From a virus: 23,302 nt of DNA. The stretch spans positions 1-23,302 of the IMG/VR virus record IMGVR_UViG_3300023192_002910, one strand, 5' to 3'. A model generated the notes under the pieces. The model was not told where the DNA came from. It saw only the letters and a program-made list of their open reading frames with translations, and searched no databases. Of the stretch, positions 1,878 to 18,100 are shown piece by piece (the first letter of the stretch is position 1; every line of letters starts with the position of its first letter). Both the position numbers and the translations under genes were made by a program.

Positions 1878-4800
1878 TTAAACGCCAGTCATTGTAGCTA
1901 GCACTCTATCTCCTACTGCTGATTGGCTGTTAGATGCAAAAATAACATTTATATTTGCTCCTGTTGCTGTTCTTCCAATAATTACCGCAGTCGGTGCTGC
2001 TAAAACATTTGCACTTTCTAAAACAGTTAATGAAATTCCCGGCGGATTAGCAAATCCAGCAGAAGTATAATCAATAAGTGTATTACCACCAACGTCACTA
2101 TTTGCAGTATGAACAGCTTCAACTGTAAAACTAATTATTTGTTTATCTATTGTATATTCAAAACGATCTATAATAAAATTGGTTCCTGCAGGGTTACTAT
2201 TTTGAACATTATATTGTAATTGAAAATACCTCAAAGTTTGAAATCCAGAAGAATGCACCACATATCCCTTGGTTCCTAAACTTCCAAAAGTACTAATATT
2301 TACATTACCGTTTGCAAAGAACGGATCAGTAGATGTAACTCGCATAAGTAAATTACTAGTAATAGTAGATGAATCTCCAGCAAAAGTTGTAGTAGTTCCT
2401 ATCGGATCATTATATTGAGATAAATCTACTAATTTATAACTAGATACTACAGTAGCTAAGTTTGCAAACGTATTACCTCCTGTTGGTTCTCCATTTGCAA
2501 AATAACTTTCACCTAATTTTACTGCATTTGCATTAACAACTTCTGCAATTAATGAATAACTGTTTGAATTAGATATATCATTAACAAATTGTCCATCATT
2601 CCAAATTGCATACACATTTCCTGTAGATCCGCCACTTATTAATGTTTTATTTATAAGCTCATCAAACGTAACTGCGGCAGCAGCAGAATTGCTAAATCCT
2701 AAAACAGTTCCTAGTCCTTCGGCTCCTCCACATGCGGTATCAATTATAATAGTATTATCATCACTGACTTCTGTTACGCCTGCAGCTATGTCTGTTCTAA
2801 AAGTATTCCAAGTAGAAGCAGTAGCAGAAGTTCCAATTACGTTTGCTGTAATACTCGAAGCAGTATTAGCAGTAACATCTCTTACTTGTGTTTGATAAAA
2901 AGCAGAATTACCACTAAACTGTAAATCTGTAGGAGCAAGACTAACAACAGACCATCCTGATGATGTGCCATTTGCATTATCAACAAGACTTGAATCAAAT
3001 GTTGCGGATACTATACCACCAGTATTAGAATTTGCGAAACTTGGAAAATTAGTTTCTGTTCTATTTGAGTTAGGAAAACCTGAAACAACATTTCCACCCG
3101 GATTATCTTCACTATAAGTTTTAAATACCCTAACAACAGCAGTTCTATTTGTAGTAATTGTTATTCCAACTACATTCGTACTCATATTACCACTAGTATC
3201 ACGGGTTTTTGCTAAATATGTAAATGTACCAAATGTATCAATTGGTCGTGCTTTACGTGTAGAACCGGCACTAACTGTTACAAAAGGATCAGCTGTTTGA
3301 AAAGCTGCATCAAAACCTGCTGTATCAATTGCTCCCGAAGCTCGTTTGATTATAACCTCTTTTAAGTCTAAATCAATTAATTCCCCTGTAAGTGTCGTTA
3401 CGTATTGCCAAAATAGTGTTATTGTGTCCCCAAGTTGACCTGCACTAAAATTTATAATATTTTGTGGTAGTGCGGATTTTCCAATAATTGCATTCTGTAC
3501 TTCTGCACTAACACCTCTGATATCATTATTTAAGGGAGTTACCCGAACAATTAATGTATTTATTGCAGACACACTTCCTCGATCTATATTATTTATAGTA
3601 TATCTTATTTTTCCATCACTGTCAACCCCTGATGCTGGTACAATAACCGTATTAAAAGAAGTTAAATCTGTCAATTCCCCAGTAACTCGATAAGATAACT
3701 CGTAGCCTGTAATTTCTTGATTTGATATGTGAGTAAAAGACACAATGGCTCTAACCGACACACCGACGGTAGTATCTAAATATAAACTTTCAGTAAATGT
3801 TAAATCTGTAACTTTTTGTATTGGAAGTTGATCAATTTGAATTGATTGAGTACTATAAGGACTACGTCTTTTAAGGGTATTTACATTTCTTGCTCTAATT
3901 ATTGTTATCCCAAGATTTATAGCTTTAATAATTCTATCATGTGGTATAGTTAGAGATTCAAATCCAGAAGAAAGTGCCATAGAGTATACATTATGACTTG
4001 CTAAATTCCACGTACCAGGAACAGTAGCTGGATTATAATCTAAAGTAAAAGTAGATCCTTCAACATTATTAACTGTTCCAAAAGTTATATCAGGACTAAT
4101 ATTAACAGCTGTTACACCAGAAGAATTAGCGGATAATCTTTGTTTTACTTGAACTCTATAAATTTGATTTGCGGTAACAGTAGTATTATATTTTTCACTA
4201 CCTACATAATAACTAGTATTTACAACTGAATACACATTACCTGCTGAAAATTGTATATTATCTCCAACTTCAATTGTTGGAACTGTATAAACATCTGCTA
4301 TAGTTTTACAAACTTGTTCTGTACCATCCAATCCTGTAATAGTAACAGACGAATTACCGGAGTCTAAAGAAAATTCAGAAGTTGCTTTTTCAGTTCCATC
4401 AACAAAAACTCGTACTTGCTTTTTAAATCTTAAATTAGTTTCTAACGGTTGAGTAAAATTACCACCAGAAATTCCCGCAGTTATATTTGCATTAGTAACA
4501 CTTGAAACTAAGGAAGTACCTGTAAGATATATAGAATTAGCTGAAAATGTAGAAGGATCTAAAATTTGTCCAAGATATGCGTAAAACGGAGATTCCTCTA
4601 ATATATCGGATAACTTAATAGAACCAGAATGTTCGTTTTGAATTTTAATTTTACTGTTTGCAATACCAGCAACATTAGCATCTACTACATTTGCGCTAAA
4701 GTCTACTAATCTACTTTTATTGTCAATAAAACCAAGTCCACCAGTACCTGTATTAGATTTTTCGTTAATAGGAATAGTTATATGATCATAACCTTTTAAA

Positions 4801-7800
4801 CCGCTAAAAGTAGTTATTCCATCATTAACTAATAACATATGATTTGAAAAATTTTCATCATAAATATCGGGTAATCCAACAATAGTAAGAAGAATATTAC
4901 CATTAGAAACACCGCTTTCAACGTCTACCGTTGCTGTAGTTTCAACTAATACAGGAATAGTTCCTAAAATAGTTTGAAAACCGTTCTTACCAATTAAAGC
5001 ACTGGTTTGATTGTTTGCTAATAAACCGATATTATTACAAGTCATTGTTAACGGAAGACTCGCAGTTTGCGAAGTTATAGTTACAGAATCAACAGGTCTA
5101 GCTATTTGGTATTCTGTTGAAATAAATAACGGATATCCTGTTCTATTTGTAGTAGCATTTACTAATAAATCGTGTCTTACTGAACCATCATTTAATCTTG
5201 TAGGTATATGTTGTAACTTTAATATAGGCGGAGGAGGAGCAGTTAATGCAGATATAGTATCATCATATCTTTGTGGTGTGTAGTTAATTACTGTGTCTGA
5301 ATCTGAATACACATTTGGAACATATTCAACACCAGCTACAGTTATTTTTTCGTCTTCATTTCGTTCAAGAGATGTTACTTTAAATAACTTATCATTTCGA
5401 TTTCCATAAAAATTAGTTAGTTCACCTTCACCAAAACTCCACAAATCACCCTTTATCGGAACAGTATTTGCTTGAAACTGTACATCTGTAGTTTTAAACG
5501 CATTACTATTGTGATCAAATCTTTCAGTAGTTTTTAATTCAATTAAATCAATTCCTGAGTCAGCATTGCCTGTTGTTAAAACTTGATATGCAGTGTTACT
5601 AACAACATAATATTCAACTCTGTCACTTTGTTGTCCTATATGTCGTAACACTAATGGTAAAGTATTACCTAAAATAGTACTTTCTGTAATAGCAGGAGAA
5701 GTAAAATGTTCTAGCAAAACATTGTTAGTATTAACTGATGCATTTGCCGCAACTTTTCCACCAAAACCATATGCTACACCCACAGATCTAGATGAAATAG
5801 CAATTATATCACCAATAGATAAGTTTATAGCATCAGTTCCTGTTTTAAAAGATACTTGCCTTCTTAAATATTTACTAGCCGCAATCATGTATTGTCCATG
5901 ACGCTGTGCTTGGCTACGTCTAGTAACACCAGCCAACTCGACTGATTGAATATTTTCTATTTGTTGTAAATCTCTAAGAGCTTGAGGATCATCTATTCTA
6001 ATAGTTTCTCTTTTATAATGATTACCTGGCTCAGTGTACGTTATGTCTGCCCCTGTTATAATATCGGTTTCTTTAGTACCAAAAAAAGCTAATGATTCTT
6101 TTTCGATATTTGCGTCATTAAAAATCGCCACAGGAATATCATCTGGCATATCCACATTTAAAGTTATTTTACCACCAGAATAAAATAATATTGCTCTCAT
6201 TGTAGAAGAAACTCTTTGAACAATATCTAAAACTTGATTGGTTTCAAAAATAGTTAGGTTTAAAGTAAAACGTCTTTCTTTAACTTTTGTATCTCGTGGT
6301 AATCCAAGAAGTGTTTCTTTAACTTCTGAAAGCACATTTCTTGGTTTGTGTCTAAAAGTGCCATCAGCGAAACCTTCTACTCCTTTATATTGTCCAGTAG
6401 TAAGATCACAAGCATCACAATACATAGAGACCTTATAAAAGAAAAATTTATCTATATTTTCTTCGGGTATACCTAGTCCATAACTATTATTAGTTAACAT
6501 ATCGTATAAAATCCATACAGGATTTTGTGTCCAAGAAAATACAAAAGTGCCGTCCCAAACACCTTCATATAGTGCAGGATTTAATTCTGTTTTAATTGTA
6601 CCTGTTCCTGATTTTTGTAATCTATAACCTTGTGTGGAATACCCAACGCTCGTAGAATTACCATTAATAACTATGGAACCTGTCTCTGGACACTCTAGTT
6701 GTCTCCAATCTATTTCTCCATCGGCTAAGATTGGTTGATTATAATTAGATGGTACTTTAACTACTAATCCTTTCACCAAACAAGTAAAAGTTGGTATTTG
6801 ACCTTGATGTTCAGCAAACGACTTAATAGCATATCCTATTAATGCTGTACGAGGATACGCTTGATCATCTTCTTCTATTTCATCCCACCCAGTAAATTGT
6901 ACTGAGTCAGCAATTCTATTAGAATCACTGTCAGCAGATGTTTTTTCAACATTAAATTTATATCCGTTAGTGCTTTTACTACCATCAGGAATATCGACCA
7001 GTACTTGAAATTTAAATGGAGTATTAGTTTTTCCATTAATTGTTCTTCCAGCAGAAGCTATTTGTGTTATTCCTGCTGCATCAAAAACCGTAATTTTTAC
7101 TGATACTGCAAATCCCCTAACATTACCGTTTTCATCTGACTCTTGTAATCCGGAAAGACTAAAATTAAATCGTAATTTATCCCAATCTTGTAGGCTTGTA
7201 GCTTGTTTATCAATAGAAGCTCTTGGAACTCCTGCAATATTACCTTTTTTCAAATTGATAGCATTTTGTAATGATTGTGGAGTTACAATTTGATCACCAA
7301 ATTGCGTCATAGCAGTTTGATCAATAGTGCCTGTTCTAGTTGAAGTTTTAAATACGTCTGTATTTTCTTCACCGTCACCATCAAGATTTATTAAATCATC
7401 CACATTTCCATCATTTAATTCAATATCTTGTGACCCGTTAGGATTAATTCTGTATATAGGACCCTCTCCAATCGCTACCGTAACAAAAAGAATATCAGTA
7501 GAAAACAAAGTATTAGGATCTTCTACAGCAGCAGGAGCAGAGCCCCCTCCTTTACCACCTCCACCTTTATTTGATAATCTAATATCCTCACAAATATAGT
7601 TATGGTATGTATTAACAGTTAAATTATAAACAGTCTCATCTAGATACGATTCATTTTCTAAAAACAATATTTTACTCTTAGAATTATCCTCTAAAGTTAA
7701 TTCTTCATCAATTTTCCATTCTTTAACTTCTTTATAATCATTATTTTTATCGTATAAATAATGATTATCAGTAACTCTAAATTTTCCTTTTTCATGTGTT

Positions 7801-8051
7801 ACTGTAATAATATAACCAACAGTTTCAGAAGGTATGTGTTTCCATGTTTTTTCGATATATGAAATCTGTTTCATGTCATAATTATCAAAACAATAAACAG
7901 CGTCTCCAATTTTCAGTGTTTCAATTGGAAAATTACCTTCTGGAGTAGACACAAGTGCACCTGCTGGGAAACAACCGCCTCCTCCGCCGCTTCCTTCTAT
8001 CCATGGTACATGTGAACCTTGTACTATGCTATAATTTTTATATACAGTCAT
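1878..8051 (-). CDS. J-type tail-tip attachment protein with N-terminal Hint domain
   Basis: At 2057 residues this is almost twice lambda gpJ (about 1130). The ATG directly follows the stop codon of the preceding I-type gene (TAAATG). Residues 1-26 end in a glycine run. Residues 27-161 form a Hint domain: Cys27 in CFPAGALV, PIETLKIGD at 42-50, TDNH at 94-97, and VYNLTVNTYHNYI at 141-153, ending at Ser160-Asn161. Glycine-rich sequence resumes at 163-170. The conserved J core begins near residue 182 (ILFVTVAIGEGPI; compare lambda LLSVIDAISEGPI) and includes VPSNYN near 435, YEGVWDGTF near 500 and YDMLTNNSYGLG near 519. Residues from about 1400 to 1600 look fibronectin III-like. The rest is long Asn/Ser/Thr-rich beta sequence, probably the receptor-binding tip. 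J proteins form the trimeric central tip of siphophage tails and set host range. Confidence 0.93.
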   Translation of the reverse strand: MTVYKNYSIVQGSHVPWIEGSGGGGGCFPAGALVSTPEGNFPIETLKIGDAVYCFDNYDMKQISYIEKTWKHIPSETVGYIITVTHEKGKFRVTDNHYLYDKNNDYKEVKEWKIDEELTLEDNSKSKILFLENESYLDETVYNLTVNTYHNYICEDIRLSNKGGGGKGGGSAPAAVEDPNTLFSTDILFVTVAIGEGPIYRINPNGSQDIELNDGNVDDLINLDGDGEENTDVFKTSTRTGTIDQTAMTQFGDQIVTPQSLQNAINLKKGNIAGVPRASIDKQATSLQDWDKLRFNFSLSGLQESDENGNVRGFAVSVKITVFDAAGITQIASAGRTINGKTNTPFKFQVLVDIPDGSKSTNGYKFNVEKTSADSDSNRIADSVQFTGWDEIEEDDQAYPRTALIGYAIKSFAEHQGQIPTFTCLVKGLVVKVPSNYNQPILADGEIDWRQLECPETGSIVINGNSTSVGYSTQGYRLQKSGTGTIKTELNPALYEGVWDGTFVFSWTQNPVWILYDMLTNNSYGLGIPEENIDKFFFYKVSMYCDACDLTTGQYKGVEGFADGTFRHKPRNVLSEVKETLLGLPRDTKVKERRFTLNLTIFETNQVLDIVQRVSSTMRAILFYSGGKITLNVDMPDDIPVAIFNDANIEKESLAFFGTKETDIITGADITYTEPGNHYKRETIRIDDPQALRDLQQIENIQSVELAGVTRRSQAQRHGQYMIAASKYLRRQVSFKTGTDAINLSIGDIIAISSRSVGVAYGFGGKVAANASVNTNNVLLEHFTSPAITESTILGNTLPLVLRHIGQQSDRVEYYVVSNTAYQVLTTGNADSGIDLIELKTTERFDHNSNAFKTTDVQFQANTVPIKGDLWSFGEGELTNFYGNRNDKLFKVTSLERNEDEKITVAGVEYVPNVYSDSDTVINYTPQRYDDTISALTAPPPPILKLQHIPTRLNDGSVRHDLLVNATTNRTGYPLFISTEYQIARPVDSVTITSQTASLPLTMTCNNIGLLANNQTSALIGKNGFQTILGTIPVLVETTATVDVESGVSNGNILLTIVGLPDIYDENFSNHMLLVNDGITTFSGLKGYDHITIPINEKSNTGTGGLGFIDNKSRLVDFSANVVDANVAGIANSKIKIQNEHSGSIKLSDILEESPFYAYLGQILDPSTFSANSIYLTGTSLVSSVTNANITAGISGGNFTQPLETNLRFKKQVRVFVDGTEKATSEFSLDSGNSSVTITGLDGTEQVCKTIADVYTVPTIEVGDNIQFSAGNVYSVVNTSYYVGSEKYNTTVTANQIYRVQVKQRLSANSSGVTAVNISPDITFGTVNNVEGSTFTLDYNPATVPGTWNLASHNVYSMALSSGFESLTIPHDRIIKAINLGITIIRARNVNTLKRRSPYSTQSIQIDQLPIQKVTDLTFTESLYLDTTVGVSVRAIVSFTHISNQEITGYELSYRVTGELTDLTSFNTVIVPASGVDSDGKIRYTINNIDRGSVSAINTLIVRVTPLNNDIRGVSAEVQNAIIGKSALPQNIINFSAGQLGDTITLFWQYVTTLTGELIDLDLKEVIIKRASGAIDTAGFDAAFQTADPFVTVSAGSTRKARPIDTFGTFTYLAKTRDTSGNMSTNVVGITITTNRTAVVRVFKTYSEDNPGGNVVSGFPNSNRTETNFPSFANSNTGGIVSATFDSSLVDNANGTSSGWSVVSLAPTDLQFSGNSAFYQTQVRDVTANTASSITANVIGTSATASTWNTFRTDIAAGVTEVSDDNTIIIDTACGGAEGLGTVLGFSNSAAAAVTFDELINKTLISGGSTGNVYAIWNDGQFVNDISNSNSYSLIAEVVNANAVKLGESYFANGEPTGGNTFANLATVVSSYKLVDLSQYNDPIGTTTTFAGDSSTITSNLLMRVTSTDPFFANGNVNISTFGSLGTKGYVVHSSGFQTLRYFQLQYNVQNSNPAGTNFIIDRFEYTIDKQIISFTVEAVHTANSDVGGNTLIDYTSAGFANPPGISLTVLESANVLAAPTAVIIGRTATGANINVIFASNSQSAVGDRVLATMTGV
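7569..7973 (-). other. Hint (intein/hedgehog-type) domain inside the J protein
   Basis: This in-frame segment encodes J residues 27-161. Block A is CFPAGALVSTPEG, with Cys27 as the candidate nucleophile after Gly26. Block B holds the TxxH motif (Thr94, His97). The block F region is VYNLTVNTYHNYI. The end is Leu159-Ser160-Asn161 followed by Lys162. A splicing intein would normally have His-Asn followed by Cys, Ser or Thr. Here the penultimate residue is Ser and the +1 residue is Lys, so standard splicing is unlikely. N-terminal thioester formation and Asn cyclisation remain chemically possible, as in bacterial intein-like domains. At about 135 residues there is no room for a homing endonuclease. 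The flanks are glycine runs, consistent with insertion into a flexible linker. Confidence 0.85.
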
Positions 8052-8783
8052 TTAACTGAAACTCTCCGATACTTTAATATCATCAGTATTACCGTGCTCT
8101 GTAGTTTCTACAAAACCACTAATTAATTGTCCCGCAACTCGTGTTTGACCATAGTGTATTGGCACACTTTGTCCTGATGAAGTTGTATTGATAAATGATT
8201 CAAATCTATCATTATTGCGTCTTTGTCCGCCATCTATAAATGTTACTTTTTGTGTTCGTGGCTTATTCAGTGCTTGTATTGCTATACTAATAACTAATGA
8301 AATTAGTTGTCCGAAAAAGAATTTGGGAGTAAAAATACCAGCAAAAAATCCTGGTGCAGTTGCCGCTCCTGTAGTAGCGGCAGCACCTGCGGTGGTTGCT
8401 GCGGTGGTTGCTGCAAATGCAGGTAAAATATAAACAGCCAAAAGAATTATTACAACAATAACGACTAATATCAATAAAAATTTACCAAATCCTTTGCCTG
8501 ATCCGTACAAAACTGGAACTATATATAAAACAGAATGTAATTTTTTCTTTAATCTGTCTACAACAAGATCATGTTGAGTTATTGGATTTTTTTCTTTATC
8601 TATAATACAAATATCTTGTGTAACCTTTGTATAACGTAATTCTGTTAAATAATAATTAAGTTTCGGAAATAAATTTATTAATGCACTAATAACATTTGAC
8701 ATATTAGCCGCTTCTATTTCGTGTTCAGATAATCCATTTGTATATTTTCTTAAAGATTTGTGAAAATGTAATTTAATTTTCAT
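8052..8783 (-). CDS. Tail assembly protein I-like, second copy
   Basis: This 243-residue protein matches the lambda gpI layout. An N-terminal beta-grasp-like domain (residues about 1-95) ends in LHSVLYIVPVLYGSGKG. A strongly hydrophobic segment rich in Leu, Ile and Val follows (about 100-128), then an Ala/Thr/Gly-rich stretch. The C-terminal block RRNNDRFESFINTT...IHYGQTRVAGQLISGFVETT corresponds to lambda NTYFSSLDN...LPVLYGEMRVGSRVVSQ. gpI is needed to build the tail tip and acts with J; its exact biochemical role is unclear even in lambda. The start overlaps the previous gene as TGATG, and the stop abuts the J start as TAAATG, so all three are probably coupled. It is clearly paralogous to the gene at 8783-9490: the last 30 residues are nearly the same. 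Confidence 0.87.
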   Translation of the reverse strand: MKIKLHFHKSLRKYTNGLSEHEIEAANMSNVISALINLFPKLNYYLTELRYTKVTQDICIIDKEKNPITQHDLVVDRLKKKLHSVLYIVPVLYGSGKGFGKFLLILVVIVVIILLAVYILPAFAATTAATTAGAAATTGAATAPGFFAGIFTPKFFFGQLISLVISIAIQALNKPRTQKVTFIDGGQRRNNDRFESFINTTSSGQSVPIHYGQTRVAGQLISGFVETTEHGNTDDIKVSESFS

Positions 8784-9490
8784 CAGTTAAACCTTTCAGA
8801 AACTTTGGGATCGTCATCTTTACCGTGTTCAGTAGTTTCTACAAAACCACTAATTAATTGACCAGCAATTCTTGATTGACCATAAATTAACTGTATATTA
8901 GTGCCTGGCGCTGTTGTATTAACTAATCCTTCAAAAAGATTATTATTTCTTCTTGCTGGTGCATCGAACGAGGCTTCTGGTCTTTTGGGTGGTTTATTTA
9001 AAGAGCTAATAATTTGTGATATTATTAATCTAAAAACCATTCCAAAAAGTTTTTGTGGCGTAAAGAAACTTGCAAAAAATCCTGGTGCAGTTGCTCCTAC
9101 TCCACCCGCGCCTTGACTAAATAAAGCACTAAGTCCACCAGCCGCGCCGATCGCGTATGCAGCTATAGCAATAATCGCAATAATCGCAAGCATTTTTCCT
9201 GTCTTACCTGATCCATAAACAACAGGAACCATATATATTTCTTTATGATTTTTTCGTAATGTACCGATTTCGTAATGATATTTATTTACTAAAGCTTTAT
9301 TTTTATCTAAAAAAGCTAAATTTTCTCCAGCCGATCCACTTAAAACTAAACTAAAATAATTATTAAATTTTGGAAAAACGCCTTTTAATGCATTAACAAC
9401 ATCAGTAAAGTCTTTAGCTTCACACTCATAAGTAGTAAGGCCATTAGTATATTTTTGTAATATCTTATGAACGTGAATTTTAACTCTCAT
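8783..9490 (-). CDS. Tail assembly protein I-like, first copy
   Basis: This 235-residue protein starts one base after the stop of the JAB gene. Residues about 1-95 are the small beta-grasp-like domain, ending in KEIYMVPVVYGSGKTGK. Residues about 98-120 are hydrophobic (MLAIIAIIAIAAYAIGAAGG) and could cross or insert into a membrane or pack inside the tip. The Gly/Ala stretch, APGFFASFFTP, RRNNNLFEGLVNTT and LIYGQSRIAGQLISGFVETT blocks match both lambda gpI and the neighbouring copy. The two copies differ most in the hydrophobic region and the N-terminal domain, which suggests an old duplication with separate roles rather than recent redundancy. As in lambda, the gene sits between K-type components and J. 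Confidence 0.87.
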   Translation of the reverse strand: MRVKIHVHKILQKYTNGLTTYECEAKDFTDVVNALKGVFPKFNNYFSLVLSGSAGENLAFLDKNKALVNKYHYEIGTLRKNHKEIYMVPVVYGSGKTGKMLAIIAIIAIAAYAIGAAGGLSALFSQGAGGVGATAPGFFASFFTPQKLFGMVFRLIISQIISSLNKPPKRPEASFDAPARRNNNLFEGLVNTTAPGTNIQLIYGQSRIAGQLISGFVETTEHGKDDDPKVSERFN

Positions 9491-9491
9491 T

Positions 9492-9863
9492 TTAAATTAA
9501 ATGTTCCTCTTTAAAATCATCAAATCGTATAGCGTCAATGTTCTTATCAAGCCAATAAAGATAAAATTTATTACTAAATCCTACAATAAACTTATATTCA
9601 TCGAAAACCGCTCCTTTCTTATCATCTTCACTTGGTAAAGGATTTTCGTCTCCTGGATGAGAGTGAAATACCCCCCAACAATCGTCTTCATAATTAAGCA
9701 AAGCAACTGGATCTAAAACAAAACTTTCTTTTGGTCTTGGACTTATATTTTTACAAGGAACATATTCAAAATTCTTTGTAATTATTCCGCAACTTTCTTT
9801 AGGATATTCTCCAGCGGCATGTTTTGACATGTCTTCAATTAATTTTTGGTATATTGTCTTCAT
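9492..9863 (-). CDS. JAB/MPN-domain metalloprotease, K-type tail component
   Basis: This 123-residue protein is a single JAB1/MPN domain. The zinc-site residues of the JAMM motif are all visible: Glu23 (in YPKESCGII), His67 and His69 (VFHSHPG), and Ser78 and Asp81 (in LPSEDD). In lambda, gpK joins an N-terminal JAB domain and a C-terminal NlpC/P60 peptidase; here the JAB part is a stand-alone gene and the NlpC parts lie just upstream. The ATG at 9863-9861 has an AGGA site upstream and overlaps the end of the NlpC gene by 29 bases. The intact motif suggests an active isopeptidase or peptidase, possibly cutting a tail protein or cell-wall peptide during tip assembly or entry. Its substrate is unknown. 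Confidence 0.88.
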   Translation of the reverse strand: MKTIYQKLIEDMSKHAAGEYPKESCGIITKNFEYVPCKNISPRPKESFVLDPVALLNYEDDCWGVFHSHPGDENPLPSEDDKKGAVFDEYKFIVGFSNKFYLYWLDKNIDAIRFDDFKEEHLI

Positions 9864-10287
9864 CTTTTATTCCTATCCATTTATATATGCCTACTGTATA
9901 TTGTCTATAATATTTACCATAAACACCTATCCATGATTTTCTACCTTCCAATAGATGTAATAACTTATTATGATCAACATACAATGCACAATGATTTGTT
10001 TGATTTGTTGACCCAATACTCATTGTTATTACAGCATATAATTCAGGTTTTTCTATCTTTTCCCATCCATTTTCTTCCACAGCTCCCATCTCAAAAGGAC
10101 GAGTAGTATCGTAATTATACCAATTTGTATCAGCAATTTTACACCAATCCCTACTATCATAAGGAATTTTAATATCTAATTCTTCTTTATATACAAATTT
10201 TATTAAATTAAAACAATCAATACCTATTTTTGGATCTAATCCTAAATGTTGGAATGGCAACCCCACATATTTTTCATACCATTTCAT
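9835..10287 (-). CDS. NlpC/P60-family peptidase, second of a tandem pair
   Basis: I place the start at the ATG at 10287-10285, giving 150 residues. It follows a GGAGAAG site and aligns with the N-terminus of the neighbouring paralog (KYVGLP against KYLGIP). A longer open frame to 10338 begins with TTG and is less likely. The catalytic triad of NlpC/P60 hydrolases is visible: Cys25 in GIDCFNLI, His99 in TNHCALYV and His111 in KLLHLLEG. NlpC/P60 domains in phage tail tips cleave cell-wall peptides near the tip during infection. The start overlaps the upstream NlpC gene by 14 bases, and the stop overlaps the JAB gene by 29 bases, so the three K-like parts form one coupled block. It retains the Asp-Cys typical of the family. 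Confidence 0.85.
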   Translation of the reverse strand: MKWYEKYVGLPFQHLGLDPKIGIDCFNLIKFVYKEELDIKIPYDSRDWCKIADTNWYNYDTTRPFEMGAVEENGWEKIEKPELYAVITMSIGSTNQTNHCALYVDHNKLLHLLEGRKSWIGVYGKYYRQYTVGIYKWIGIKDEDNIPKIN

Positions 10288-10726
10288 CTTTTTTTCTTCT
10301 CCATATACTGTGCGTTTTTTCTCTCCAGTTAGCCCCAAAAAAATTAATCTCTGATTTATGTTTTTCTTCTATGTGAATAAATTTTCCTTCACCTACATAC
10401 ATACCAAAATGAATTGGACGATTTTTACTTGACTTAAATAATATTACATCATATTCTTGAAGGTCTGTCAAATCAACTTTTTGTGCATGATCTTTGCACC
10501 AATCCAATAATTCATCAAAAGTTACTTCAAATGTCCATTTAGTCCCAGTTAATTCTTTTCCTTTTAAATAAGCTTTTCCATCTTTAGATTTTATATCTAA
10601 ATAAACCCAAAGACTAGAAAAAATATTACTTTTTAATTCTCTTTTATAAATAAATTCAATTAATGTAATACAATTTATTTTATTATATGAGTGTGGAATT
10701 CCCAAATATTTGGTATATTTACTCAT
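10274..10726 (-). CDS. NlpC/P60-family peptidase, first of a tandem pair
   Basis: This 150-residue protein starts with ATG inside an ATGA overlap with the radical SAM stop codon. The probable triad is Cys19 (NKINCITLIEFIYKREL), His106 (RPIHFGMYV) and His118 (KFIHIEE). The usual Asp before the catalytic Cys is replaced by Asn, which is tolerated in some members. It shares its length, N-terminal motif and overall layout with the next gene, but the central region (residues about 30-95) has diverged. Its role is likely local cell-wall peptide hydrolysis, or a structural position in the tip if only one of the pair is active. Two full NlpC genes in tandem are unusual next to lambda's single NlpC domain in gpK. 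Confidence 0.85.
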   Translation of the reverse strand: MSKYTKYLGIPHSYNKINCITLIEFIYKRELKSNIFSSLWVYLDIKSKDGKAYLKGKELTGTKWTFEVTFDELLDWCKDHAQKVDLTDLQEYDVILFKSSKNRPIHFGMYVGEGKFIHIEEKHKSEINFFGANWREKTHSIWRRKKDEMV

Positions 10727-11910
10727 AATGATTCATACCATTTTTTATATTCAGGATAAATTTCGACAAAAGGAGGATCATCTCTAACTGATGCCATATG
10801 TTCGTTGTATCTCTTGAAATCTTTTTGTAATTTTAAATTAGTTTCTCCATTATTCATATACCGTAACCAATCTAAAATATTGTTAATTTGAGTTTTGTTA
10901 AAAATAACACCATGTGTTTGTAAAAATTCTTTATAATGTTGATTAATTTTTAATTTTTCTTTTTTAGGTAAAATTTGAATATTTTGTTGTTCAGGAGATA
11001 CTAAACAAGTACCGTGGACTTCTATACCATATTTCTTTGCCCATATTAATAATTTTGGTAAACTGTAAATACTATAAATACTAACCACACTACTAATAGT
11101 AGTTATATATTTTTGCATTTCTGCTACATGTGATGCAAATCTTCCCCATTTAAATTCTGTTCTAGTATATTCTCCTTGTTTACCAAATCCATCACAACTA
11201 GGCCATAATCTAACATCTTTAAATTTTTTCCACAATTTTCTAAGATCATAGTTTTTATATTTTAAAACACTCAAATTTGTATTATAAGTAATAGAAATAT
11301 TAGTATAATTATTCTCTATTAACCAGTCTAATAATTTATAATGACCTTCTTGCATTAATGGTTCGCCACCTGCAAAATATAAATCAGTTAAAGAAGGCGC
11401 AATTTGAGGTAAAGCTTCCCATAATTTATTATTATTTGTCCATTTATCAATAACTCCGACAGGTATTCTATTCAATGCTTTAGAGTCTTTATCCCATCTA
11501 GTTGATAAAACAGGTCCACAAGTTCGGCATCTAAAATTACAAATATTACCAAACCGAATATCTATATATGAAGGCAATTCCCCTAAAAACCCATCTTGTC
11601 TGGTTATAGATTGTCTATATTCTTTATTAGCAAATCTTTCATTAAATACTATTCTTGGACTTCTAATTCCTACTGCTTCTTTTTTATAACAATGTTTAAC
11701 GCATTGTGCTGGCTTTTTACCTTCCATAAAATCTGATCTAAGATTTTTTAGTTCTTGTCCGTTCCAAACATCATTTAAAATATTATCTTCTGAAGAACCT
11801 AAATTAAAATTTTCAGCATCTACGGCTCCCTCAGAAAAACAACATGCTTTATATTTTCCAGCAATATTTCCGTGAAGATGAATCCATGGAAGTATACAAC
11901 CTTTTATCAT
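10723..11910 (-). CDS. Radical SAM protein with N-terminal twitch/SPASM-like domain
   Basis: This 395-residue protein starts at an ATG after an AGGGGA site. The radical SAM core shows CX3CX2C at Cys124, Cys128 and Cys131 (GNICNFRCRTCGP) and GGEP at 181-184 for S-adenosylmethionine binding. Before the core, residues 1-80 resemble a twitch/SPASM auxiliary-cluster domain: Cys5, Cys23-Cys24, then NLGSSEDNILNDVWNGQELK and Cys70-X3-Cys74. SPASM domains usually follow the core, but phage and related proteins with this domain in front are known as twitch-domain radical SAM proteins. Family members with auxiliary iron-sulfur clusters often modify peptides. The gene lies within the tail operon, 17 bases after L and overlapping an NlpC gene, so co-expression with tip proteins is near certain. 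Its substrate is unknown; a tail protein is possible. It may also be an unrelated accessory gene inserted here. Confidence 0.9.
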   Translation of the reverse strand: MIKGCILPWIHLHGNIAGKYKACCFSEGAVDAENFNLGSSEDNILNDVWNGQELKNLRSDFMEGKKPAQCVKHCYKKEAVGIRSPRIVFNERFANKEYRQSITRQDGFLGELPSYIDIRFGNICNFRCRTCGPVLSTRWDKDSKALNRIPVGVIDKWTNNNKLWEALPQIAPSLTDLYFAGGEPLMQEGHYKLLDWLIENNYTNISITYNTNLSVLKYKNYDLRKLWKKFKDVRLWPSCDGFGKQGEYTRTEFKWGRFASHVAEMQKYITTISSVVSIYSIYSLPKLLIWAKKYGIEVHGTCLVSPEQQNIQILPKKEKLKINQHYKEFLQTHGVIFNKTQINNILDWLRYMNNGETNLKLQKDFKRYNEHMASVRDDPPFVEIYPEYKKWYESL

Positions 11911-11927: not shown

Positions 11928-13544
11928 TTATTGTTTTGGAACAGTTCGTCCAGTACCTGGAAACCCTCCAAAATGTAATTGATTATTTCTAATTTTACAC
12001 GCTTCAAAACTTTTAGCACACTCGTCATCGAAATTAGAACTTGCTATTTGATTATTTAAATCAATTGGATTTGTATTACTAGTTACCGAAGTTCCAGAAA
12101 TTGCTAATCCTCCTGGACCGGGATATTGACACTCTTCTCCTTTATATGTCCATTGACAAGTATTTTTAAAAAATTTCCTTTTAGGAAGTATAAGTTTAAA
12201 ATATTGTAACCAGCTTACTAAAGAAAATGAAGCAAATTTTTCATTAAGAGTGGATAATCCATCAACTTTAAACACATCTTTAACATACGCTTCAGAATCA
12301 GATTCGTTATTAACAATTAATATTTTTTCTCCTGCGAAGGTATTACTTAAATTTTCATTATTTGCAAATATAAATCTATTCTCTTCAATTTCTACAACAA
12401 AAGTTGTTGTAGTAAGATCACTATTTGATGCAATTTCGTCACCAACTCTATAAGGTAATGTAGATACCATTTCAAGAACATTACTAAAAGCTGTCTTAGT
12501 AACTGAGTACTCAGGCCAGTAATCTAAAAAATTAGAAAAAGTAGATTTAATTTCTACAACTGCTCCTAATAGATCCCTGCTATCCAATTTTTCTCGTTTC
12601 CACGCATTTTGTCCAAAAACTCCAGATGTTTGTGCTTGAGTATAAATAAAACTGGCATTTTGAAATCCATAAATACTATCAATAACAGTTTGATCAAAAG
12701 CATGTCCTGCAGTACGTTGAGCATTAAGCACAGTCGTATGTTCTGAATCAGAATACGTAGCATCTGCTGGAACTGTTCTAGGATCAATACCGTTGACTAC
12801 TTCACCATTAACTACAGCAAATACAGCATTAGAAGTACAATTACCAACAATATCTGGATCTTCAACAATTGAAGTAATTACATTATCAAAATTAGAAATA
12901 TCAAGACTTACTTCATTGACTTCTCCATCAGACCCTGTTGAAATTCCTGAACTATCAACAGGATATGGCGAAAAACTTTCTGCGCCAAAAGTTACATTAT
13001 ATTGTAAATCAGAATGTAAATCACCCCTAATTTCTGCAAATTTTAATGGAAAATTGTGGGGCCAATTTCTTCCAGCACCAGGGGTCTCAGTATTTTCTCC
13101 TCCGTCTGGATTACCACTTTCGTTAGGAGGAAACCATTCACCAGGATAATATATAGTGTATAATCTTACTAATGGATTTTGTTCAAAAGCATTTTTTTCT
13201 CTAATATAATTACTATTATTAATTTCAAGAACTTGTCCAATACCTGTTGTAGTATTACTTACCGCAGGTGTAGGTGGAGTAAATGCTGTATCTCCTGTAG
13301 CACTAGCATTAGAATCCCCTCCTGAAACGTTAATTACGTTAGCAGTAATAGATTCTGAATTAGTAAATTCTTGAAAAACATTATTTACTTTTACTTTTAA
13401 ATTAGACGTACCATTACTATTAGACTCAACATTGGCGATAACACCTTCAGTGCCAGTTGTACCACCAATAATAACATTGCTGTTTTTAAAAATACCTGAA
13501 GATGTACTAACAGTAAGAATATAATCATAAGTTCTAGATGTCAT
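11928..13544 (-). CDS. L-type minor tail protein with four-cysteine C-terminal domain
   Basis: I start this 538-residue protein at the ATG at 13544-13542, which overlaps the previous stop as TGATG; an in-frame TTG one codon earlier is less likely. The C-terminus matches phage minor tail protein L: Cys463-X8-Cys472, Cys509-X6-Cys516 and the LHFGGFPG motif. In lambda gpL this region binds an iron-sulfur cluster, so the same is likely here. Lambda gpL is only about 230 residues. The extra length is an N-terminal beta-rich part (about 1-100) with IIGGTTGTEGVIANV, plus an expanded middle with a Pro/Gly-rich insert near 140-165. L forms the ring between the distal tail ring and the tip hub. Position after the M-type gene and before K-type genes agrees with lambda order. 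Confidence 0.85.
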   Translation of the reverse strand: MTSRTYDYILTVSTSSGIFKNSNVIIGGTTGTEGVIANVESNSNGTSNLKVKVNNVFQEFTNSESITANVINVSGGDSNASATGDTAFTPPTPAVSNTTTGIGQVLEINNSNYIREKNAFEQNPLVRLYTIYYPGEWFPPNESGNPDGGENTETPGAGRNWPHNFPLKFAEIRGDLHSDLQYNVTFGAESFSPYPVDSSGISTGSDGEVNEVSLDISNFDNVITSIVEDPDIVGNCTSNAVFAVVNGEVVNGIDPRTVPADATYSDSEHTTVLNAQRTAGHAFDQTVIDSIYGFQNASFIYTQAQTSGVFGQNAWKREKLDSRDLLGAVVEIKSTFSNFLDYWPEYSVTKTAFSNVLEMVSTLPYRVGDEIASNSDLTTTTFVVEIEENRFIFANNENLSNTFAGEKILIVNNESDSEAYVKDVFKVDGLSTLNEKFASFSLVSWLQYFKLILPKRKFFKNTCQWTYKGEECQYPGPGGLAISGTSVTSNTNPIDLNNQIASSNFDDECAKSFEACKIRNNQLHFGGFPGTGRTVPKQ

Positions 13545-15184
13545 CAATCATAGACCTCTTTAATTTTTATTTTAATAATATAAAAATTTTCTGGTAAAGT
13601 GCTTCCTGAAGATAAAACATGTGAAACATCTAAATTTCCATCAAATCTTGCTCGAATTGTTCCAGCTTCATTAATATGACTTAAATCAAAATCAAATGAT
13701 TCAAAAGAGCCGTTTCTTGCTTTAAAAAATCTTTCCAGTGCTTCTAATTCAACTCCTGAAACATTGGTATAAGATAAATCAAAATCTCTCTTAGAACGTC
13801 TACTTCTAAGGCGTCTTTTTTCATATCCTGCTTGTGATTCAAAAGTTACTACGTCAAAAGAACGTTCATGTTTATAGCCAGTATCAGGTTTTCTATCTGC
13901 CATACTTGAAAATCTATCTGTACTAGTAATCGATCCTTGAAATGTTCTAATATCAAGAGTATCATCCCCTGTTAGTCCTAACGGACTGTGTATAGTCGTA
14001 AAGGGGCCTGGAAGAGAAGTAAAAGCTTCATTATATACAGAAGTATTATTAACAAATCTAAAACTATCAATAAATCCATCTAAAAACTCTGAACTACTAA
14101 ATTTACCAAGATCAAATGTTCCTGTAGGATTTAAAGTAATTGTTGGAATAGCAATATCTTCTTCAATTAGTGTACCATCAATATAAAGTCTTGCGGCTCC
14201 TGTATCTGATGCACCTGCCTCATCGTCTTCACGATTGGAAACATTAATGTGATAATAAGTACTCGCACTAATACTCCCACCTTGTAAGTCTATCACATCT
14301 GTTCCACTTGCTACAAGCTTAAATTGAATTTTATTATTAGCTAATCTACTTAATTTAACATAATTAGAAGCGTCAGTACGATGAGAAAAAATTGTTCTTG
14401 CGTCTCCTATTCCGTCAAAACGCGCTCTACAATCAATAGTAAAATCTCCTGTATAATCAAAAACAGCATTATCAGCAAAAGTTATAGAATCGTCTGTACC
14501 ATCAAAGAGTGCCGCAGAATTTCCAAAAGCAGAAGTTCCACTTAAAACGGAACCTGTTACTGTAGAAGTTAAACTAGACTCGCTTTCGTCATTAAAATTA
14601 GAACCGAAATTTAGTAATAAAACAGTTCCTTCACTTTCTCCAATAGTAATTCCTTGAAACCCTAAATTTCTAGAATAAGATGCCGAAGTTGTTTCTGGTT
14701 CTGTATTAGTACAAGCAAATGTGTAAGAGTCATTACCTTGTTGAACACCACTGATAAAAACCATTAAATCATTTTTACTAGCAATACCGCTTACACCGGC
14801 AGGTAATGAGAAGTTAGTTGTTTGTCCATTTATTAAATATGTATTACCATTTACTACTGTAGCACTAGTATTTGAAAAATGAGTAGATTCAATACTAGGT
14901 AAAGAACGATTTAACCGATATCTTGCGGGCAAACTAATTGTTTTTAATGTCAGATTTGAAGCACTAGGGGCATCATTAAAAGTAATTGTTACTCCACCAT
15001 TTGATAAAGCATATGTTATAGTTGATTGTTGAATACCGTCTACAAATGCAACAACCTCGCCCCTATGTTCCACTGGTACGGATAAATTAAAAACAGTTGC
15101 AACCCCAGTAGAAGGATACGTAATACTAGAAGTTACAGAAAAAGCAGTTGTATTAGCTGTTGCGTCATCTGGATAAATTGCCAT
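13544..15184 (-). CDS. Distal tail protein: M-like domain fused to a LamG-like lectin domain
   Basis: The ATG at 15184 overlaps the tape measure stop as TAATG. The 546 residues divide into parts. Two related beta modules with FVDGIQQ and FISGVQQ lie at about 30-85 and 125-170. A concanavalin A/LamG-like domain spans about 188-395, with ALFDGTDDSITFADN, FTIDCRARFDG, ARLYIDG and FLDGFIDSFRF. A C-terminal domain at about 436-546 resembles lambda gpM, with RSRRSKRDFDLSYTNVSG, ALERFFKARNG and FDFDLSHINEAGTI. The M-like part should form the ring that closes the end of the tail tube. The LamG-like domain probably projects outward and may bind surface glycan, as in evolved distal tail proteins. The gpM match is moderate and the LamG call is based on motif pattern. 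Confidence 0.8.
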   Translation of the reverse strand: MAIYPDDATANTTAFSVTSSITYPSTGVATVFNLSVPVEHRGEVVAFVDGIQQSTITYALSNGGVTITFNDAPSASNLTLKTISLPARYRLNRSLPSIESTHFSNTSATVVNGNTYLINGQTTNFSLPAGVSGIASKNDLMVFISGVQQGNDSYTFACTNTEPETTSASYSRNLGFQGITIGESEGTVLLLNFGSNFNDESESSLTSTVTGSVLSGTSAFGNSAALFDGTDDSITFADNAVFDYTGDFTIDCRARFDGIGDARTIFSHRTDASNYVKLSRLANNKIQFKLVASGTDVIDLQGGSISASTYYHINVSNREDDEAGASDTGAARLYIDGTLIEEDIAIPTITLNPTGTFDLGKFSSSEFLDGFIDSFRFVNNTSVYNEAFTSLPGPFTTIHSPLGLTGDDTLDIRTFQGSITSTDRFSSMADRKPDTGYKHERSFDVVTFESQAGYEKRRLRSRRSKRDFDLSYTNVSGVELEALERFFKARNGSFESFDFDLSHINEAGTIRARFDGNLDVSHVLSSGSTLPENFYIIKIKIKEVYD

Positions 15185-18100
15185 TATGTTTGTTCCCTAA
15201 TTCCTCTACGTATTGCTCCATTATTTTTCAAGTCTCTTAAAATAACATCAACAACAATTTGTTCTGGAGTAATACTAATATCAGGGCTGCTATCTGCTTC
15301 TTTTGGCGCTCCTTCATTAGAAACATTCACACTAATATTTTGTCCTGAACCTCCTGTACCATTCATTCTTTGCATAGCAGAAATTCCAGCTTTAGAAACT
15401 GCCTGTTTTCTCATTATAAATTCACCAGGTTCTAACATCGCAGGAATATTATCTCTTTGCACACCGCCTGAAGCAAAATGTCTAATTCCTCTTTGGTTTG
15501 ACTGATTTATTAATCCACCTGCTGCCATACGTCTAACAAGTCCTCCTGAGGCAAATCCTTGGGGAAGGTCACTGGCACCGCCTCCAAACATCGAAGCGAA
15601 AAAACCACCAATACCACTAAGTAATCCGGTGCCTGCGGCACCCGTGCCAAAAATAGCGCTGCCTAGGCCGCCAAGAATATTCTTACCTAATCCAAGAATA
15701 CCATTAAAGGCTCCTGAGAAAATATTTCCTAAACCCGCAGTAAATGATCCTGTTTCTGAAAATATTTGTTCAAATCCTTGAGTAAACTGAGTACCTGCCA
15801 AAGTCAAATCAGCACTACCTGACTCTAATGCGGAGCCAAAAATATTAAGTCCGCCTGTTGCATTATTTGTAGATGCAAGAACAGCATTTTGACTTATAGC
15901 AAGAGTGTCATTGGATGCTGTCAACGTGTCATTTATATTAGCACTTTGTTTAGGTGCTAAAGCTTTCTGAAGCAGTCCTTGTCCACCACCTGCTCCTCCT
16001 GCAACAACTTGTACAAATAAAGCTTTTTGTGCACTAGTTCCATCACGTTTAACAAAACTATCACCTAAAATGCCTCCTAATAAATTTTTACCTATATCTG
16101 CAATTCCTTGTTCCAAGGGTTCCATAACAAGGCGATTAAAAACACTTTTTCCGATATCGCTTAAAAGACCAATAAATAGATCTTTTACTCCTTTTTTAAA
16201 GTTTTCCATAGTTAAAGTGCCTTCTTCAATAGCTGTAAAGAAATCTTCCGCACCTTGTTTTAACCTATTTCTAATAGCGCCAACAATATCATCAATAATT
16301 TTTAAAAACTCATTATTGAGAATACTATTTAATTTTTCTTGTGATTCAATTGCTTTATTTTTTGCAGCCACTTCTCTTTTAGCCGCATCGACGGCTTGCT
16401 GTGAGCTATCTATTACTCCGCTTAATTCGTGCCGCGCCGCATTAATTTTTGTTTGTAAAATTGTCTCATCAATCTTTTTTTGTTCATCAAGTAGTCCTTT
16501 CCTTTCCACAAACGCCAGTTTCTCTAGTTCCAATATCGCTAATTTATTTTTTATTGCTGCTAGGTTTTCGTCTTTTTTTGCATTAATTTGTATTTTTTTA
16601 TTTTCAAATTCTTGATTTGCGATTTCTTTTAGTTTAGTATTAATGCTTTCGTATGTATTAAGTAATAGAATGTTGTTCATTTTCAATTCCATCACTTTTT
16701 CTCCAAGTTCCTCAATACCTAGCTGCGCTCCAAACTCCTCCCTACTAACCTTTACCTTTACTCCTAAAGTATCAGCGATTTTTTTAACATGCATAAACAA
16801 CACATCACCTAAAGCAGTAGAATGTTCTCTTAACGCTTTTGCTTGTTCAAACATTAAATCTAGTTGTTTGTCTAAAAATTCTTTTGCTATCTTTCGTTGT
16901 ACAAAAGCAGCCTCTGCTGTTGCTATTTTACTAGCTTTTGCGAGGTTTGCTTGCTCAATTCGGGATGTAGCATCGGGACCAACACGCATTTTTTCATCAT
17001 TTAAAATTTTAATTCTTTCGTTAATTATCGTTTTTTCATTTTTAAGTTTTAATTCTTCGTATTTAAAACGTTGATTAATTAAAATTTGTTCTTGATTAAA
17101 TATCTTTTTTTGCTCATCCACTTTAAAGTTAGCAAGTCTTTTATCTAGTTCGAATTGCTTTTGTTGTCTTTCTAGAAGCCTTTCTGCTTCAGAAGCATCA
17201 ATACGAAGAGCTTCTAATTCAATAACTTGTGCATCTTTTTCTGTAAATAAATTACCAAAAGCACTTGCTACAGAAGATTTTAAAGCATTAGCACGTCTTT
17301 CATCTTCCGCCGCAGTTTTTATTGCAACTATTAGTATCTGTTCACTATACTCTAGACTTTTTTTAAGCCGCGACATGCTTGCTATATCCTGAGCAACTTG
17401 AGCATTAATTAGTTTTAATTTAGATTTATCTAAGTCTAAAGCTAATTTAGAATTATGTAAACCTGTGTCAGTTCCTACCTTAAGTTTAGTTTGAAGTAAT
17501 GCTTCTTTTTGGCTAAGCGCTGCTTGATCTTTTTTAGTTGCTATGTCGTTAGCATTAATTTTTTCTTGCTCTTCAAGGATAGATAATTGATTTGTTAGTG
17601 TTGTTAAGAGTAGATTTGCCTTATCATTAGCCTTATCTAATTGTTTAGTATATTTTTCAATTTCTAAATTAATTTTAGTATAAATACCTTGTAAAATTGA
17701 AGCAGTTTTATTTGCGATTTCGCCTTCTTTCGCGCTAAGTTCTAGTAGTTCCGTGGTTTTCTTCCCAAGGTAATAGGACGCGGCCACTGTTTGCTTATTT
17801 TTCTTTTCATAATCAACTCGCACTGCGATTAGTTCCACGCCTCTCTTTAAATAATCAAGCCTAGATCTTTCTACATCTACCGCATCTTCATTTAGGTGTA
17901 ACACGCCCTCTGAGTCTAATCGAATAACTTTATATAAATCTTTAGCAGCTTTTATTTCTTTACCAAATAAGTCTTTTAAACTGTCTCCTAAAGTAGCTAA
18001 ATTAGTAGCTATCTTACTAGCACTTTGAACAAGACTGTCATCTCCCAGAAGCTCCTGCATAGTTTTAAGAGCTCCCAAAGCATCTTTAGTACCTAATTTT

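Follow-up and report, generated by a model that had tools for sequence, protein, structure and literature searches.

A radical SAM enzyme gene occupies a conserved but optional slot among the tail-tip genes of a group of phages

Radical S-adenosylmethionine (rSAM) enzymes that modify peptides or proteins, such as SkfB, CteB, SuiB, and anSME, have their auxiliary SPASM or twitch domain C-terminal to the core (as the accessible text of PMC6231123 states for SkfB), and in BtrN, the twitch dehydrogenase of butirosin biosynthesis, the twitch (residues 185-257) also follows the core. Here, we describe an rSAM gene in which this order is reversed and which lies in the tail operon of a virus, namely in a stretch of 23,302 nucleotides (positions 1 to 23,302 of the IMG/VR virus record IMGVR_UViG_3300023192_002910) that, at its full length, is referred to below as the window. 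The tail-tip genes of the window share the gene order H-M-L-K-I-J of phage lambda. In lambda, however, no gene lies between L and K, whereas in the window, the K function is divided among NlpC, NlpC, and JAB genes, and the rSAM gene is inserted between L and K, in a place that we call the slot.

Phages are known to carry rSAM genes in other settings. As far as the accessible parts of the sources go, the Campylobacter T4-like phages CP220/CPt10 have several of them, presented as a module that is exchanged between phages and from which infected cells may gain in fitness (PMC2853527); pelagimyophages have several as well, described as gene cassettes (PMC7029224), and rSAM genes of T4-like phages have also been placed in iron-sulfur (Fe-S) metabolism (PMC5332604). 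The accessible text of PMC2853527 and PMC7029224 places none of these genes in a siphovirus tail-tip slot, and the NCBIfam subfamily NF033640 (N_Twi_rSAM), to which the window gene belongs, is named in none of the three accessible texts. Among the open-licence papers listed by our searches, none connects tail modification or the L-K slot with an rSAM enzyme. Hence, the enzyme subfamily is known, and what is new is the conserved, exchangeable place of one of its clades.

IMG/VR was searched twice over, with the rSAM protein as the seed and, separately, with gpL as the seed. The scans kept the best 80 matches (of at least 596 and 591 with the rSAM seed, and of at least 307, 307, and 345 with the gpL seed); records close to the window's own may be missing from these scans, and a copy of the window (L002) was excluded from the locus counts. 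In the first gpL-seeded scan that was counted, the gene following gpL was the rSAM gene in 66 of the 80 loci and NlpC in 11, while 3 loci were cut. Four gpL-seeded scans were pooled, and loci identical to an earlier one over 360 bases at the end of gpL were dropped (near copies remain), which left 120 distinct loci, with the rSAM gene in 87, NlpC directly in 28, a cut in 5, and another gene in none. Only in L303 is gpL separated from the gene that follows it by at least 200 bases. Starting from the enzyme, gpL was found upstream in 45 of the 80 rSAM-seeded loci; two more (L037 and L064) begin beyond gpL and continue into NlpC, one (L031) is located elsewhere, and 32 are more distant and have no gpL. 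By eye, the second rSAM-seeded scan returned largely the same contigs.

It is close to certain that this rSAM clade is associated with a single slot, to which it is almost confined and which separates gpL from peptidase genes of the gpK type in lambda-like tail-tip operons of uncultured phages. A preliminary description of the window had asked whether homologues sit at the same place in other phages, with chance placement of an accessory gene as the alternative. The former holds for the slot clade (87 of the 115 uncut distinct gpL-seeded loci) and not for the wider family, given the 32 rSAM-seeded loci without gpL, and the slot counts (87 full, 28 empty, and 0 with another gene) rule out chance placement for the slot clade. 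NF033640 scored above its cut-off in 9 of 14 contigs checked, with one match each, and two of the contigs without a match are empty-slot phages (61.5 and 116 kb). No close relative of the rSAM protein was found in the GenBank phage collection, in which the best matches, two 255-kb Vibrio phages and one single-cell fragment, show ~25% identity to a portion of it.

The occupants of the slot form a branch separate from the other NF033640 members. A FastTree phylogeny of 157 rSAM rows (234 rows of at least 300 amino acids clustered at 78% identity) placed the 44 non-redundant slot rows and L031 on one branch with a support of 100, and in an IQ-TREE phylogeny of 96 rows, including cellular relatives as well as 25 rows from distant phages, the slot rows, L031, and one cellular locus (L161) grouped together with a support of 98. 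A profile search of cellular genome contigs with alignment A5 gave 79 loci (best 80 of 215 relatives); an earlier search with alignment A2 had confirmed nothing. A random sample of 25 other cellular rows, taken from what was left of 106 matches of 340-480 amino acids, included no member of the slot clade. The cellular NF033640 loci retrieved belong mostly to Bacteroidota and Bdellovibrionota-type metagenome-assembled genomes, and the representative of their commonest neighbour cluster (13 loci) has no Pfam match. The other phage members, among those listed, mostly stand beside further rSAM genes. In one such locus (L092, 12649-14727), a B12-binding radical SAM gene adjoins a run of N_Twi-type rSAM genes.

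The window gene has an ATG start, and its product matches NF033640 over residues 5-392 (profile positions 5-398 of 398) with 345.6 bits against a cut-off of 170 (E = 4e-103), which makes it a member of the family over its whole length, with an N-terminal twitch followed by the core. Pfam finds SPASM (PF13186) with 27.2 bits (cut-off of 21.5) and at residues 5-74 only, i.e., not after the core as in the canonical order, and Radical_SAM (PF04055) at residues 119-228 with 18.4 bits, below its cut-off of 29.5. Membership in the radical SAM superfamily is nonetheless clear from the core motif C124-x3-C128-x2-C131 and the GGE motif (G181, G182, and E183), all invariant in 100 aligned rows, and from the fit of the core, a partial TIM barrel, to BlsE, MoaA, and SkfB (Z of 11.5-12.4). 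The auxiliary-cluster cysteines C5, C23, C24, C70, and C74 all precede the core, as the preliminary description had proposed when it pointed to a leading twitch/SPASM-like domain. That order does depart from standard SPASM enzymes; it is not a new architecture, since it already defines the named subfamily NF033640. No near-invariant cysteine was seen beyond residue 131 in the slot-clade alignment, no PqqD/RRE-like leader-binding domain was matched by Pfam in the protein at an E of 0.01, and no precursor-peptide gene was seen among the window open reading frames of at least 60 amino acids, the same-strand neighbours being tail proteins of at least 123 amino acids.

By several signs, the gene appears to encode an intact enzyme. 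In the slot clade, C23, C24, C70, C74, C124, C128, and C131 are found in 44 of 44 rows, and C5 is present in all 42 rows that reach it. Comparing the window with L005 gives a ratio of nonsynonymous to synonymous substitution rates of 0.158, and comparing L017 with L020 gives 0.154; gpL has similar values in the same two pairs (0.144 and 0.141). In addition, an AlphaFold2 (AF2) model built from a 100-row alignment has a mean predicted local distance difference test (pLDDT) score of 96.3 and a predicted template modelling (pTM) score of 0.92.

The gene is tightly packed within the operon (Table 1), in which the order is tape measure, DUF2460 (M position), gpL, rSAM, NlpC, NlpC, JAB, gpI, gpI, and gpJ. 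Its start lies 17 bases beyond the gpL stop codon, an AGGGGA resembling a ribosome-binding site ends 5 bases before its ATG, and it overlaps the next gene, NlpC protein a, by 4 bases; the location between two tail-tip genes with translational overlap, noted earlier from the sequence, was thus borne out. The window contains 9 promoter-like sites against 10.6 expected from shuffled sequence, i.e., no excess.

Table 1. Coordinates of the rSAM gene, its motifs, and the surrounding tail genes in the window
Feature	Position	Strand	Basis
N-terminal-twitch rSAM protein, 395 aa	10723..11910	-	NF033640, PF13186, AF2 model
N-terminal twitch/SPASM-like domain, residues 5-74, C5/C23/C24/C70/C74	11689..11898	-	PF13186, BtrN twitch match, invariant cysteines
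Radical SAM CX3CX2C motif, residues 124-131	11518..11541	-	translation; cysteines in 44/44 non-redundant slot-clade rows
Tape measure protein	15184..20427	-	tblastn, ~10% of query, to Vibrio phage proteins annotated as tape measure
Distal tail protein, M position, DUF2460, LamG-type stretch	13544..15184	-	PF09343, PF13385
gpL-like hub, four-cysteine C-terminal domain (C464, C473, C510, C517)	11928..13547	-	PF05100, TIGR01600, hhalign, AF2 model
NlpC/P60 protein a, part of gpK function	10274..10726	-	PF00877, phrog_30
NlpC/P60 protein b	9835..10338	-	PF00877, phrog_30
JAB peptidase, other part of gpK function, separate gene	9492..9863	-	PF14464, phrog_30
gpI-like tail assembly protein, copy a	8783..9490	-	phrog_32
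gpI-like tail assembly protein, copy b	8052..8783	-	phrog_32
gpJ-like central fibre, Hint-like domain near N-terminus	1878..8051	-	phrog_31; PF13550 and PF24801 above cut-off; PF01079 and PF13403 below

Several other features of this operon are worth recording. Two NlpC/P60 genes and a JAB gene (9492-10726) together provide the gpK function, in an order shared by nearly all relatives listed, while the tandem pair of gpI-like genes (8052-9490) contrasts with the single gpI of lambda and of most relatives listed. The distal tail protein matches PF09343 with 30.0 bits, just under the cut-off of 30.4, and PF13385 with 46.4 bits (cut-off of 27.6); it contains a LamG/ConA-like stretch, and in some relatives, the protein is only ~325 amino acids long. 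In gpJ, a Hint-like (intein-like) domain at about residues 26-163, with PF01079 and PF13403 matches below cut-off, is embedded in a glycine-rich N-terminal linker. Parsing by motif of 46 distinct gpJ N-termini found a Hint-like insert in 18 and a plain linker in 28. The inserts terminate in HN-G, HN-K, or SN-K, and since the Asn is never followed by C, S, or T, splicing by the usual route is doubtful. The Hint-like insert and the rSAM gene are unevenly combined: 13 rSAM-plus loci have the insert and 37 lack it, compared with 9 and 1 of the rSAM-minus loci, respectively. These counts leave out four unparsed and three undecided loci and retain near copies, so shared descent may explain the imbalance.

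We postulate that the product of the slot gene modifies a tail-tip protein and that this enzyme is optional, with gpL, encoded just upstream, as the first candidate substrate, and we give this reading a probability of roughly 40%. The enzyme would be made late, together with the tail-tip proteins, and would cleave SAM to generate a 5'-deoxyadenosyl radical; its auxiliary cluster may then help to introduce a post-translational change, such as a dehydrogenation, an epimerisation, or a crosslink, into a tail-tip protein. The change would be optional, because relatives without the rSAM gene keep the same tail operon, and it may tune tip stability or host contact rather than constitute a universal assembly step. 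More tentatively, the enzyme may be a dedicated, slot-locked maturation factor that uses radical chemistry to alter the gpL hub, or one of its partners, while the tip is still open; phages would swap or drop it to tune the tip. Modification of a tail protein is plausible, and the enzyme probably acts either on the tail tip or on another component needed late in infection. Two observations suggest a tail protein as the substrate, namely that the slot holds the rSAM gene or nothing and that the gene is packed among tail-tip genes. The modelled fold is compatible with this, the rSAM core standing as near to peptide and protein modifiers (SkfB, CteB, and anSME) as to the first-ranked BlsE, within a tie.

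Indeed, in fold comparisons of the core with VIA, the cytosylglucuronate decarboxylase BlsE ranked first (Z = 12.4, with a root-mean-square deviation [rmsd] of 3.6 over 215 residues), followed by MoaA (Z = 11.7, 5.0 over 224) and, all with a Z of 11.5, SkfB (3.8 over 210), CteB (4.6 over 224; entries 5wgg/5why, which we take to be CteB), and anSME (4.0 over 222), with SuiB next (Z = 10.9, 4.4 over 211). The core fold is thus common to the window protein and to the peptide- and protein-modifying SPASM/twitch enzymes, from which it differs by its N-terminal auxiliary domain. By the rule of the tool, the leading folds are tied, and so the fold does not tell the substrate. Absence from a list of fold matches was given no weight.

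A number of results weigh against a tail protein as the substrate, and several of them fit an alternative in which the gene is a moron-like metabolic cassette riding the late tail operon and acting on a sugar, a nucleotide, or another small molecule (for example, to feed a surface glycan); we regard this alternative as a strong rival, only somewhat less probable than tail-protein modification. The first of these results concern the fold and the twitch: BlsE heads the VIA ranking, albeit within the tie, and positions 5-77 of the family profile match the BtrN twitch (4m7t, 185-257; E = 7.6e-7). BtrN acts as a carbohydrate dehydrogenase. A search of PDB sequences with alignment A4 (the window protein plus 99 of 109 rows, with ten fragment, minus-strand, or long-branch rows removed by eye) returned 27 sequences, of which the BtrN chains alone have their best stretch in the N-terminal domain, and the same search with alignment A2 gave no match. 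By these comparisons, the N-terminal twitch of the rSAM protein appears to stand where BtrN has a C-terminal one. The fold nevertheless does not decide for a metabolic cassette, since of the next folds by Z (MoaA, SkfB, CteB, and anSME), three modify peptides or proteins.

The history of the gene weighs in the same direction. When the rSAM-seeded loci were added and a limit of 93% was applied within each class, 82 gpL rows remained (65 with and 17 without the rSAM gene), and on their tree, presence of the gene requires at least 8 changes, 6 of them forced by starred branches. A ten-row clade that is well supported by gpL (98) and by the M-position protein (96, nine of the ten rows), and that is not rejected by NlpC protein a (p = 0.32 in the approximately unbiased [AU] test), is rejected by the rSAM data (log-likelihood 171 lower; p-AU = 1e-56). 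Conversely, a 13-row rSAM clade is rejected by gpL (p = 0.0006), the M-position protein (12 rows; p = 1e-5), and NlpC protein a (12 rows; p = 0.004). These clades were picked after the trees had been seen, and the p-values therefore flatter the conflict. Pairwise distances of rSAM show correlations of 0.39-0.59 with the distances of five tail proteins, as compared with 0.42-0.88 among the tail proteins themselves, and those of NlpC protein b also depart from the other tail proteins (0.39-0.59). Tree mirroring was tried as a way of choosing a partner for the rSAM protein, and no tail protein stood out. Collectively, the rSAM gene is a cassette that has been lost or gained and swapped in place, and the flanking genes share a history that it rejects. 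Such loss, gain, and swapping are in keeping with a metabolic cassette, whose position could be restored by recombination through the conserved gpL and NlpC ends. Exchange of the enzyme among related phages would be easily understood as well if it acted on a tail protein that these phages conserve.

Two members of the slot clade lie outside tails, which shows that the enzyme can exist away from them, rarely among the loci examined. In L031 (7600-9194 of a 43-kb viral contig), the rSAM gene follows a sequence that, by eye, resembles transfer-messenger RNA (tmRNA), and it adjoins a gene for a nucleoside diphosphate (NDP)-sugar epimerase, with a glycosyltransferase gene ~5 kb beyond. In L161 (7878-9065), it stands among ordinary chromosomal genes, as named by eye from their translations, on a Neomarinimicrobiota contig; a gene of this type was found in 1 of 245 Neomarinimicrobiota genomes, namely the source genome itself. 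A search for gpL in the source records of L031 and L161, run without a positive control, did not find it. Sugar-related neighbours were also seen further afield: among 27 distant phage rSAM loci chosen from the 38 without gpL, 11 have a neighbour cluster whose representative carries UDP-glucose/GDP-mannose dehydrogenase domains. Taken together, the independent history of the gene, the off-tail members of the clade, and the sugar leanings of the twitch and of the relatives' neighbours suggest a substrate other than a tail protein.

Against a metabolic cassette, the slot never holds a different gene in the 115 uncut distinct loci, unlike a general moron site. Promoters speak to both sides. Morons often carry a promoter of their own, and in L303 (5995-6226), a 232-base leader precedes the slot rSAM gene and contains a sigma-70-like site with 11 of 12 matching positions (TTGACA, 17 bases, TACAAT), in which TG precedes the second hexamer; the leader nonetheless has only 2 promoter-like sites compared with 3.7 in shuffles, i.e., no excess. 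The window rSAM gene is tightly packed, and promoter-like sites are likewise not in excess there.

The search for a target within the tail adds a further point against the proposed tail-tip modification, in that column scans of nine tail protein sets revealed no convincing target of the rSAM enzyme. The screen looked for columns that are constant with the rSAM gene and changed without it, and of 399 near-invariant columns, gpL S179 alone was changed in 3 of 5 minus lineages. A pseudo-lineage control, made for gpL only, produced such a column in 0.8% of random runs and 8.4% of long-branch runs. When more loci were included, 62 of 65 plus rows had S179, whereas 8 of 17 minus rows differed from it (one of them by a gap); N39 came next (kept in 64 of 65 and different in 9 of 17, one a gap), and of 6 independent pairs, ~2.5 and ~2.2 agreed for S179 and N39, respectively. 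The S179 signal was not decisive with more loci and is therefore not used as evidence; together, S179 and N39 may offer a weak lead at most. Another column, gpI Y45, stood out among 49 rows and was no longer picked once all gpI copies of more than 100 amino acids were used.

The adjacency of gpL also raises the unlikely alternative that the rSAM protein is a maturation helper for the [4Fe-4S] centre of gpL, acting in cluster building, sulphur insertion, or redox protection. The neighbouring window protein is clearly gpL-like, with 91.1 bits to PF05100 (cut-off of 25) and 82.5 bits to TIGR01600 (cut-off of 70.75); hhalign pairs it with lambda gpL at a probability of 99.05, with four cysteines aligned, and the best PDB match of its AF2 model, which is only fair (mean pLDDT of 74.2), is lambda gpL (8iyk_L). 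According to the accessible text of PMC10721106, lambda gpL carries an oxygen-sensitive [4Fe-4S] cluster, which would suit such a helper. However, C464, C473, C510, and C517 are invariant not only in 44 rSAM-plus rows but also in 8 rSAM-minus rows, and building of the gpL cluster is therefore an unlikely role for the enzyme. Moreover, lambda has a gpL and no L-K gene, and the A-type carrier PF01521 was not found in five contigs of 61-116 kb, two of which are without a slot rSAM gene.

Even less probable is a viperin-type defence or host-takeover enzyme that would produce a modified nucleotide. With the rSAM model as the query, viperin-like chains come first in Foldseek by E-value (1.1e-5), and they are also among the PDB sequence matches, while weak matches to the core were obtained with PADLOC pVip (22.9 bits) and NF038283 (22.2 bits). 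The latter score is far under the NCBIfam cut-off of 180 bits, the profile matches cover only ~100-120 core residues, and the gene sits in a structural operon. To our knowledge, viperins have no such N-terminal auxiliary-cluster domain. We rejected this explanation on the scores, though viperins head the Foldseek list.

If the tail tip is indeed modified, virions of these phages would carry a radical-made change that is invisible to sequence alone, a modification of virion proteins by radical chemistry of a kind that we did not find in the open-licence literature, and the empty-slot relatives would serve as ready controls for the effect of the enzyme. Even if the tail tip is unmodified, a slot for a single enzyme that is only ever full or empty (115 uncut distinct loci) represents an unusual cassette, locked in position and yet freely exchanged. 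In either case, the slot helps to confine the search for what this uncharacterised rSAM subfamily does.

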